DNA of 40,481 nucleotides from Bacteroidota bacterium (GTDB taxonomy: Bacteria; Bacteroidota; Bacteroidia; Bacteroidales; VadinHA17). This document shows, in pieces, positions 32,898 to 35,976 of the stretch (positions are counted from its first letter, which is position 1; every line of letters starts with the position of its first letter). The notes below the pieces were generated by a model. That model searched no databases and was not told where the DNA came from. It saw nothing but the letters and a program-made list of their open reading frames with translations. The stretch lies in assembly GCA_011049175.1 (NCBI GenBank), contig DSCJ01000122.1, positions 1 to 40,481 of the forward strand, given 5' to 3'. Both the position numbers and the translations under genes were made by a program.

Positions 32898-33539
32898 ATG
32901 CAGATACGGAACAATATCCGCCGTTTGCTTCAGTACCGCATGTGCCTGATCCGTTTCAGGGAGCTTGGTTTTGAAAGGGTCTATTCCTACAGTCTGGGAC
33001 GGGAAGCCGGAGTAAGCCCCGAACAGATCCGGAAGGATTTTTCCCGGTTCGGTATCAAGGGAAACAAGCGGGGAGGTTACCTGATAAGTGAACTGCTCGA
33101 TTCACTGAACTATATTTTCGGGAAAAATGAACTCCAGGATGTCATACTCATTGGAGTGGGAAATATCGGAATGGCTCTTGCACGGTACAACTGCGGCTTC
33201 TTTAAAAGAAGAAAATACATTGTGGCTGGTTTCGACATCGATCCTTCCAAAATCAGAAAGATCAATGAAATCCCTGTTTTGCCCATGGAGGTAATGCCAC
33301 GTTTTGTGAAGGAGAACGGAATTACTGTGGGAATCATGGCAGTCCCGGCTGTTTCCGCACAGGAAGTCTGCAACAGCCTGGTGAATGCAGGCATTAAAGG
33401 AATTATGAATTTTGCCCCCATTGTGCTGAAAGCGCCCAAACACGTGGTAATTGAAAACATTAACCTGTGCAATGTGCTGGAAAGTGTGATCTACTGTGCC
33501 AACTATGCCCGGGATGATCTGGGCGTGCTGGAGTGCTGA
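32898..33539 (+). CDS. rex: Redox-sensing transcriptional repressor Rex
   Basis: A 213-residue repressor that senses the NADH/NAD+ ratio: NADH releases it from DNA. A winged-helix domain (about 1-78) includes YSLGREAGVSPEQIRKDFSRFG, the recognition helix of the family, and the wing KGNKRGGY. The Rossmann domain that binds NAD(H) has GVGNIG (86-91), then GFDIDPSKI and the later AVPAVSAQEVCNSLVNAGIKGIMNFAP. Length is standard. It is divergent from the hydrogenase operon, with operator-like sites on both sides of the 259-base gap, which otherwise holds AT-rich sequence and no gene. The position implies control of the NAD-linked hydrogenase by cell redox state, and of itself. Confidence 0.95.
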   Translation: MQIRNNIRRLLQYRMCLIRFRELGFERVYSYSLGREAGVSPEQIRKDFSRFGIKGNKRGGYLISELLDSLNYIFGKNELQDVILIGVGNIGMALARYNCGFFKRRKYIVAGFDIDPSKIRKINEIPVLPMEVMPRFVKENGITVGIMAVPAVSAQEVCNSLVNAGIKGIMNFAPIVLKAPKHVVIENINLCNVLESVIYCANYARDDLGVLEC

Positions 33540-33631
33540 GGACTTTTCCTAACGGATCATTTACTTTTCCGAAGGCAATATAAACATGGATAGATACGGA
33601 ATGTCTATAGAATGAGTGTACGGAAAATAAT

Positions 33632-33681
33632 AAACTACGTAGGTAACTACGTAGGAAACTACGTAGTTACCTACGTAGTTT
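33632..33681. repeat. Perfect 23-bp hairpin of four CTACGTAG units at 12-base period
   Basis: CTACGTAG, itself a palindrome, occurs four times at 33635, 33647, 33659 and 33671, exactly 12 bases apart. The 4-base linkers differ (GTAA, GAAA, TTAC) so that the entire block also forms a perfect 23-bp inverted repeat (33632-33654 and 33659-33681) with a GAAA loop. It sits in the 166-base gap between rex and hypF, 24 bases before hypF. There is no T-tract, so it is not a standard terminator. Confidence 0.9.
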
Positions 33682-33705
33682 CCGAATCAGGTAACAGGCG
33701 GATTT

Positions 33706-35976
33706 ATGAATGAACGCAAACCGGTAACCCGGGAGATCAGAATTACCGGACTGGTGCAGGGGGTGGGATTTCGCCCCTTTGTATACAGAATGGCCCTGGA
33801 ACACGGTGTTTGTGGGTATGTAAAGAATACCAATTCCTGTGTGTTGATCAGGGCCAGCGCTTTTCCCGATGAACTGGATATGTTTACGGAATCACTCCGT
33901 TTGCAGGCGCCGCCGGTAGCCGTGATCGAAAATATACAGTGGAAGGATATTCCGGGCGAAATCTTCCGTGATTTCAGGATTGCTTCCAGCGACGACCTTT
34001 CCGAAGAAGTAACCCGGGTGAGTCCCGATATCGCCGTGTGCGACAAGTGCCTGGCGGATATGAAAAGCCAGCCCGCACGCATCGCTTACCCTTTCCTGAA
34101 CTGCACGCATTGCGGTCCCCGTTTCACCATTGTGAAAAGTTTGCCGTACGACCGCCCGCGAACCACCATGAACGTTTTTTCCATGTGTTCCTCCTGCCGG
34201 AAGGAATACGAGGACATAACCGACAGGCGTTTCCATGCGCAGCCCGTGGCCTGTTGGGATTGCGGACCCGTTTGTTCACTGATTGTTCCAGGAAAGACCT
34301 TGACCGCTATTCAGGAAATACTGGAAACAGCCTGCCGGATCATCGACGGGGGAGGGGTCCTGGCCGTCAAAGGCATGGGAGGATTCCATCTGGCCTGTAA
34401 TGCGCTGGATCAGCAGTCCGTTTTGCGGCTGCGAAACATGAAAATGCGGGAGGCCAAGCCTTTTGCCGTTATGTTCCGCGATCTGCCAGCCCTCAGAGAA
34501 TACCTGGAAGTGACCCCGGAAGAGGAGGAAGCCCTGACTTCCTGGAGACGCCCGATCGTGATCATGAAAACCCGGAAAGAACTGGCCGGACCTGTGAGTA
34601 ACGGATTTCACACCACAGGAGCCATGTTGCCCTATATGCCGCTTCATTACCTCCTATTCGAAAAACTGAAAACACCGGTGATTGTGCTTACCAGTGGAAA
34701 TCTTTCCGACGAACCCATTCTTACCGTTAATGAGGATGCCCGACGCATCATGGGGCCCCTGACCGATGGTGTGCTGGATTACAACCGCGAGATACACAAC
34801 CGGACGGATGATTCGGTGGTGATGGCAGTGCGTGGAAAGACCCGGATTATCAGGCGTTCCCGGGGTTATGTACCCAATCCCATTGTGACGAGGTGGAATA
34901 CCGAGGGAATTTTTGCCGCCGGGGCCGAACTGGTCAATTGCTTTGCCGTGGGAAAAGGCCGGTCGGCCATCATGAGCCAGTACATCGGTGACCTGAAAAA
35001 TGCGCCAACCTACGATTTCTACCGTGAAAGCGTGGAGCGTTTCTGCAGCCTGTTCCGGATGAAACCTGCTCTGGCAGTATGCGATATGCACCCCGATTAT
35101 CTTTCCACCGGTTATGCACAGGAACTGGGAGTGCCCGTGACGGACGTGCAACACCACCATGCCCACATGGCTTCGGTCATGGCCGAACACGGCCTTGCCG
35201 GGCCCTGCCTGGGAATCTGCTTTGATGGTACGGGGTACGGAACCGACGGGCAAATATGGGGCGGTGAGTTTCTGTTGGGAGACCTTACCGGGTTTGAAAG
35301 GAAGGCACGTTTCAGGTATGTTCCCGTACCGGGTGGAGATGCCGCAACCCGTGAACCCTGGCGTATGGCCCTTTCATACCTTCTGGATACCTTTGGGGAG
35401 GAGGTACGGGAACTTCCCCTATCCTGGATCGGGGAGATTCCTTCGCAACGCCTTGATCTGATTATTCATGCCTGGCAGGGACGGGTGAATGCTCCTATGT
35501 CGTGCAGTGCGGGAAGATTGTTCGATGCCGTATCGGCCCTGCTGGGGATCTGTTTGTACAGCGGGTTTCATGCCGAAGCACCCATGCGGCTGGAAAATGC
35601 GGCAGGAAAAGCCGAAGGCCCGACATATCCCTGGCAGGATGGGGAGGAAATCGATTTCAGGGATATGGTCCGGGAAATGGTCAGCGACCTGGCCGAAGGG
35701 GTTACGGTTGGCCGGATCGCTTCCCGGTTTCATTATACCCTGATCCGGATGTCGGTTGATGTAACGGAAAAGATCCTTGCCGGTACGGGTCCCCTGCCCG
35801 TTTTACTTTCGGGAGGCAGCTTCCAGAACCGGCTACTGCTGGAAGGGGTGGAAACGGAGCTGGAGAGGAAAAAGATCAAAGTGTACAGCAACCTGCGGGT
35901 TCCGGTAAACGACGGAGGTATTGCCCTGGGCCAGATGGTGATAGCTGCAGCCAGGAAGGAAGCCGGGATGTTATAA
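33706..35976 (+). CDS. hypF: Carbamoyltransferase HypF
   Basis: A 756-residue enzyme that makes the cyanide ligands of the [NiFe] site from carbamoyl phosphate, passing the carbamoyl group to HypE. Domains in order: acylphosphatase-like (about 1-95, with LVQGVGFRPFVYR), two zinc-finger pairs (CDKCLADM ... CTHCGPRF; CSSCRKEY ... CWDCGPVC, about 110-190), the YrdC-like nucleotide-binding domain (about 195-385) and the Kae1-like carbamoyl transfer domain (about 395-750) with HHHAHMASVM and GICFDGTGYGTDG. All landmarks are intact. Follows rex in the same direction with the hairpin element in between, and is convergent with hypE (29 bases between stops). Confidence 0.97.
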   Translation: MNERKPVTREIRITGLVQGVGFRPFVYRMALEHGVCGYVKNTNSCVLIRASAFPDELDMFTESLRLQAPPVAVIENIQWKDIPGEIFRDFRIASSDDLSEEVTRVSPDIAVCDKCLADMKSQPARIAYPFLNCTHCGPRFTIVKSLPYDRPRTTMNVFSMCSSCRKEYEDITDRRFHAQPVACWDCGPVCSLIVPGKTLTAIQEILETACRIIDGGGVLAVKGMGGFHLACNALDQQSVLRLRNMKMREAKPFAVMFRDLPALREYLEVTPEEEEALTSWRRPIVIMKTRKELAGPVSNGFHTTGAMLPYMPLHYLLFEKLKTPVIVLTSGNLSDEPILTVNEDARRIMGPLTDGVLDYNREIHNRTDDSVVMAVRGKTRIIRRSRGYVPNPIVTRWNTEGIFAAGAELVNCFAVGKGRSAIMSQYIGDLKNAPTYDFYRESVERFCSLFRMKPALAVCDMHPDYLSTGYAQELGVPVTDVQHHHAHMASVMAEHGLAGPCLGICFDGTGYGTDGQIWGGEFLLGDLTGFERKARFRYVPVPGGDAATREPWRMALSYLLDTFGEEVRELPLSWIGEIPSQRLDLIIHAWQGRVNAPMSCSAGRLFDAVSALLGICLYSGFHAEAPMRLENAAGKAEGPTYPWQDGEEIDFRDMVREMVSDLAEGVTVGRIASRFHYTLIRMSVDVTEKILAGTGPLPVLLSGGSFQNRLLLEGVETELERKKIKVYSNLRVPVNDGGIALGQMVIAAARKEAGML

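Follow-up and report, generated by a model that had tools for sequence, protein, structure and literature searches.

A tandem palindrome array ahead of hypF as one of about 25 dispersed, putative binding arrays of a small MazE/AbrB-fold protein in a Bacteroidales genome

The window, that is, the whole stretch of 40,481 nucleotides under analysis, contains an array of short palindromes between two genes, with the following features:

32898–33539, forward strand: rex, redox-sensing repressor, upstream neighbour (Pfam PF06971 and PF02629)
33632–33681, no strand: perfect inverted repeat, two 23-bp arms with GAAA (33655–33658) between them
33635–33678, no strand: array of four CTACGTAG units with a period of 12 and the spacers GTAA, GAAA and TTAC
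33706–35976, forward strand: hypF, hydrogenase maturation carbamoyltransferase, downstream neighbour (Pfam HypF domains)

Rex is the usual name for a gene with this pair of Pfam domains. A gap of 95 bp separates the end of rex from the array, and a further 27 bp separate the array from the hypF ATG (33706). Its units start at 33635, 33647, 33659 and 33671, and the 40-kb window holds no further exact copy of CTACGTAG. The left arm of the inverted repeat (AAACTACGTAGGTAACTACGTAG, 33632–33654) and the right arm (CTACGTAGTTACCTACGTAGTTT, 33659–33681) are exact reverse complements. The coordinates bear out both symmetries described in the initial annotation, namely, four palindromes at an exact 12-bp period and a perfect hairpin whose 23-bp stem is closed by GAAA.

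The genome of the window (G000; 3.24 Mb, 98.1% complete) contains 59 exact CTACGTAG-N4-CTACGTAG pairs compared with none of the reversed control, and 100 compared with one when up to two mismatches are allowed, which is more than chance would give. In this genome, 23 arrays were located out of about 25 in all; four of the 59 pairs were unlisted, which would bring the number to about 27, and the arrays at the end of contig C6 and the start of contig C8 probably belong to a single array. Across 60 tabulated genomes, the window's own included, exact pairs are present in 11 of the 36 genomes of its family, and in none of the 24 genomes of other families, one of which has a single hit with the reversed control. 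A scan for three units with one genome per species returned 99 stretches, all from metagenome-assembled genomes titled Bacteroidales, Bacteroidetes/Bacteroidota, 'Chlorobiota' or uncultured bacterium. One viral contig was matched as well (L022:8543-8670), with three exact units and TGGG spacers in a decaying tandem repeat, and is probably unrelated to the arrays. Two array-less genomes (G031 and G027) showed no other tandem palindromes in 20 stretches covering 391 kb.

With regard to their anatomy, the arrays combine a strict unit with a variable, A+T-rich and symmetric spacer in the two genera profiled, an example of the 12-mer being AACTACGTAGTT. The number of units and the spacer are typical of each genome. 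Four units are the commonest arrangement in the window's genome (12 of 23 arrays), two units with a TATA spacer are found in all nine arrays of G018 and in the four pairs listed out of 15 in G026, and most fetched arrays of G013 and G022 carry two units with a GCGC-like spacer. The loci of JALVJE, WFRO, DQWH, JAMOUS, JAADHC and CAJWTE were drawn by a three-unit pattern, so their unit counts are biased upward; a two-unit pattern applied to G029 (the same as JAMOUS) gave 15 three-unit and 9 two-unit arrays. CRISPR repeats measure some 20–50 bp and alternate with unique spacers of about that length, compared with units of 8 bp and spacers of 4 bp here, so the block does not qualify as a CRISPR array. 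In G013 and G022 (L220-L259), the flanks of two-unit arrays are often complementary over up to 11 bp, and these are the only two of 11 genomes tested in which extension of the stem past the array is significant; template-switch correction of quasi-palindromes perhaps produced these flanks.

A candidate for the protein recognising the arrays came from their neighbourhoods. In two genera (G003 and G018), these share a gene for a protein of 59–60 residues that starts just behind an array, and the counterpart in the window's genome starts 16 bp behind one:

G000:C63:15976-16155: gene of the MazE/AbrB-fold protein of about 60 residues

All nine proteins scanned match the MazE_antitoxin family PF04014, with 26.0–34.1 bits against a cut-off of 24.7, and a ribbon-helix-helix binder, the first guess, was dropped once this protein had appeared. 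Members of this fold are homodimers with a swapped-hairpin β-barrel. The structure model, built from five sequences (pLDDT 63.8), is a β-β-α-β-β monomer, the nearest solved structures by fold being the EcMazE–DNA complex and AbrB (best 2mru, Z 5.6, rmsd 2.4, 50 aligned residues). The best Foldseek E value was 0.087, a five-row profile matched AbrB with an E value of 0.024, a phmmer search of solved structures returned only two unrelated weak matches, and no NCBIfam model scored above its cut-off in eight proteins.

The gene starts 15–55 bp after a CTACGTAG array in 9 of the 11 array-bearing genomes (the exceptions being G005 and G011), the distance to the ATG being also 15–55 bp in the 12 genomes tabulated, and 23 bp in G026. 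The family protein is encoded in 10 of the 11 array-bearing genomes (not in G011) compared with 6 of 25 array-less ones of the family (Fisher p = 2.7e-4). Searches for it gave hits in 22 of 59 genomes belonging to the window's family and in 4 of 295 sampled from the order. In 7 of 12 genomes, a TAnnTTTG box, the Bacteroidetes promoter motif, starts 23–24 bp before the array. In the largest group of arrays at a common position, the array stands between cvpA and the MazE-like gene in five of seven genomes (G013, G022, JAMOUS, JALVJE and WFRO), while the window's genome and DQWH have the cvpA array, with the MazE-like gene elsewhere. In a MazEF toxin-antitoxin module, the toxin gene directly adjoins that of the antitoxin; here, the next gene in the two loci examined codes for a 206-residue protein without significant family (L040) and for a serine hydrolase (L086). 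Two genomes speak against the link: G005 harbours 11 CTACGTAG arrays, none of them beside its sole detected homolog, which has a different upstream repeat, and G011 has one pair (L218) and no detected homolog.

The repeat upstream of the gene changes with the paralog. Inspected by eye, the upstream regions of 30 homolog loci contain exact CTACGTAG arrays in ten cases and a degenerate one in G032 (a genome with no exact pair elsewhere), TAACGTTA-like units in five, ATTTAAAT with ACCT/AGGT in five, other repeats in seven and nothing in two. Of 30 upstream regions, 24 match themselves best at a lag of 12, compared with 109 of 1168 controls, and 21 of the 30 exceed the 99th percentile of the controls, one of 31 regions (CAJWTE included) having been dropped as too short. 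Two of these other repeats are themselves dispersed in some genomes that have the corresponding paralog: among nine genomes searched, type B TAACGTTA pairs number 13 in G061 and 6 in G028, with none in the other seven, and the type C sequence ACCTATTTAAATAGGT occurs 36 times in G034, 21 in G066, 4 each in G029 and G012 and once in G005, with none in four others. The correspondence has its exceptions, since no exact TAACGTTA pair is found in G033, G022 or G062 despite type B proteins, no exact type C site in G022 despite a type C protein, and the single type C site of G005 comes with no detected type C protein. A loop of the protein, LTKxxGGxSY, varies with the type and reads GGKSY in all five type B rows of the alignment. 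Two homologs were left out of that alignment, one of which has GGKSY but lacks an array. As each type takes its name from the repeat upstream of the gene, this match of protein and repeat is not a blind test. The homologs G062:C291 and G069:C274 lack an upstream array, the former having the type B loop GGKSY, and type E upstream regions are weak. Regarding homologs outside the family, G289 has units with a TACGTA core and a period of 12 ahead of the gene, and the upstream region of G279 is A+T-rich with no clear array.

Sequence comparison shows the arrays, their dispersal and shared positions, their link to the gene and the change of upstream repeat with the paralog. Taken as a whole, the block ahead of hypF is very likely one of about 25 arrays, dispersed through the genome, to which this small MazE/AbrB-fold protein binds. 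Among the possibilities raised in the initial annotation, an operator array for a protein fits best, since the same kind of array precedes the MazE/AbrB-fold gene and many paralogs have 12-bp-period repeats of their own. We infer that one dimer would occupy each 8-bp palindrome (core TACGTA), and that dimers on adjacent units, at a distance of 12 bp, would bind cooperatively. In front of the protein's own gene, the array is placed downstream of the likely promoter and upstream of the ATG, so that the protein should repress itself. The array ahead of hypF ends 27 bp before the ATG, and local repression of hypF is therefore possible. Elsewhere, the arrays lie mostly between genes and away from promoters, and would probably be fixed anchoring or roadblock sites.

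The genomic positions of the arrays are based on simple ORF calls. Coding sequence holds 12 of 126 arrays, whereas 85% of random points fall there. Another 25 arrays, near the end of a stretch, were unclassified, and the remaining 89 comprise 50 co-directional, 20 convergent and 19 divergent gaps, for expected shares of 51, 21 and 28%. The arrays are thus mostly intergenic, without clear orientation bias. A role as promoter operators for all of them was rejected, as divergent gaps are not enriched and the TAnnTTTG box is found on the far, upstream side of 1 of 116 arrays, being absent from the other 115. Gene starts within 300 bp of arrays lie at a median distance of 156 bp. A position in common with another genome was observed for 101 of 182 arrays, forming 38 groups, one of which spans seven genomes. 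A group was defined by one homologous flanking neighbour on the same side at a similar distance, and the counts are raw ones; JAGGWN, identical to G013, was counted apart, which makes one array double and a five-genome group one of four. In two groups, a single genome contributes two arrays, and gene families may have caused such groups to fuse. The arrays of one group are located within the same gene in four genomes, LuxC-like in the copy scanned, and no functional theme emerged among 20 neighbouring proteins scanned. The initial annotation had held that many copies at random places would speak against a specific element: the copies are indeed many, but their places, mostly outside coding sequence and in many cases held in common between species, are not random.

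This distribution lends itself to the idea that the protein bridges distant DNA at its arrays, like a sparse nucleoid protein, which would be a special case of the preferred explanation. The arrays are dispersed, mostly intergenic and mostly off promoters, show no clear preference for orientation and share positions between genera; on the other side, no partner protein is known, and we consider such bridging possible, though somewhat doubtful. In a broader and equally tentative proposal, Bacteroidales may have an orphan MazE/AbrB-fold family in which each member is specific for its own 8-bp palindrome at a common 12-bp pitch. The members' own operators would have been copied chromosome-wide, up to tens of sites, giving rise to paralog-specific binding networks, and the arrays would then have been kept over genera, the protein acting as a chromosome organiser rather than a promoter regulator.

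The manner in which the arrays spread leads to a different explanation, according to which they are REP-like selfish palindromes, i.e. short mobile repeats spread by copying, with the MazE-like protein merely using one of them as its operator. Several sets do have a copied appearance. An identical, asymmetric 36-bp sequence is present in 15 of 19 fetched type B arrays, only one of the six arrays of G028 is orthologous to any of the 13 in G061, type C copies reproduce, by eye, the variations found within the repeat ahead of the gene itself, and the uniform TATA spacers of G018 and of the listed pairs of G026 point the same way. However, the CTACGTAG arrays hold positions in common across genera, copying alone does not explain why each paralog goes with a repeat of its own, and no match to the Y1 transposase (PF01797) exists in the window's genome or in the array-bearing G018 and G029, some being found in the other eight array-bearing genomes. 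Mobilisation of the RAYT/REP kind by a Y1 transposase is thereby rejected for the window's genome. From the sequences compared, some sets look copied, and the CTACGTAG set appears to be older and to have kept its positions. The earlier alternative of a simple mobile hairpin is consequently favoured by the copied-looking arrays of some relatives but opposed by the lack of a Y1 match in the window's genome, and REP-like selfishness as a full explanation appears unlikely.

Traces of insertion were seen at the arrays themselves. Six contigs of the window's genome end 109–125 bp past a CTACGTAG array (C6 end, L143; C8 start, L144; C13 end, L150; C18 start, L162; C4 start, L161; C34 end, L155). The ends of C13 and C18 share sequence with the start of C9, where it lies inside a helicase gene. 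The C6 end and C8 start have 16 bp in common, then diverge, and in the sister species a single unbroken array of four units aligns with the two of them. This suggests an insertion into a unit, probably with an 8-bp target duplication, although no sequence connects the two contigs. Nothing strong matched the C4 and C34 ends among the loci compared. The arrays thus look like insertion hotspots, two pairs of contig ends sharing IS-like sequence. Inspected by eye, four arrays of the same genome (L145, L152, L158 and L161) have a repeat in common next to them, around GTGCAACTTACTGAATGTTGCAC / CTTGAACTCAA; it is an inverted repeat as well and perhaps a second dispersed element.

As to the hairpin, the initial annotation had also considered an RNA element for hypF and an RNase stop protecting the rex mRNA. 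The region 33620–33695 does fold strongly (-40.6 kcal/mol, z -8.75 compared with shuffles), but the L141 and L148 arrays, with unpaired spacers, fold about equally well against their own shuffles (z -7.45 and -8.85) because each unit is a palindrome by itself. In 27 four-unit arrays, Watson-Crick spacer pairing shows a modest excess (88 of 162 compared with 73.8; 11 of 2000 permutations), lost when G-U pairs are allowed (98 compared with 91.5; 235 of 2000), and in 85 three-unit arrays pairing stays at the permutation level (182 of 340 compared with 174). Perfect pairing is a minority feature (10/27 four-unit arrays, and 13/88), so the stem of the window is real but not defining. It is followed by no T-tract, no pairing kept by compensatory change was seen, which leaves neither an intrinsic terminator nor a conserved RNA hairpin, and the Rfam matches are all far below the gathering score. 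The RNA stem is in consequence unsupported as a conserved feature. The block is not specific to hypF either: 40 genomes had a hypF match, and an array precedes the gene in 2 of the 30 loci examined, those of the window and its sister species, where it occupies the equivalent position but has only three units and no GAAA loop. Control local to hypF or rex, by an operator or an RNA hairpin tuning hypF or protecting the rex mRNA, is quite improbable despite the strong hairpin and its conserved place in the sister species, given that similar arrays adjoin unrelated genes and even lie within the LuxC-like gene.

The binding-array reading connects a dispersed repeat of no known role with a protein, in more than one instance. 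The palindromes differ between paralogs whose recognition loops differ, but the pitch of 12 bp is common to them. The paralogs thus form a natural set from which the DNA code of AbrB/MazE proteins could be read, and the operator appears to have been turned into a genome-wide repeat. The role of a small regulator at many conserved non-promoter sites becomes testable.

Among the matches listed in a literature search, such arrays were not found in titles or abstract openings. Comparison with known systems starts with MazE and AbrB (SpoVT-AbrB fold), also small proteins of PF04014. The AbrB domain of E. coli MazE binds an operator at its own -10 region (PMC9477884). Here, no toxin gene adjoins in the two loci examined, and the putative operator consists of tandem 8-bp palindromes with a 12-bp period, of which operator-like arrays are dispersed in the genome. 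Bacillus AbrB is a global transition-state regulator of more than 100 genes that binds varying DNA sequences (PMC4022651). An AbrB-fold protein with many genomic targets would thus be common to both cases, whereas the site described here is a strict repeated palindrome, mostly off promoters. REP/BIME elements go with RAYT transposases, and a CTAC/GTAG motif and IS targeting are characteristic of them. They are dispersed intergenic palindromes in regular clusters (PMC2817692). Dispersed intergenic palindromes, the motif and apparent IS targeting are found here too. In contrast, no Y1 transposase was matched in the window's genome, the tandem order follows a strict 12-bp period, and the protein linked to the arrays is predicted to bind DNA rather than to act as a nuclease. 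The met boxes of MetJ likewise are tandem 8-bp palindromes, with dimers bound side by side; they differ from the present arrays in that MetJ is a ribbon-helix-helix protein acting at promoter operators with a period of 8, whereas here the period is 12, the predicted fold is that of AbrB and the sites are dispersed.
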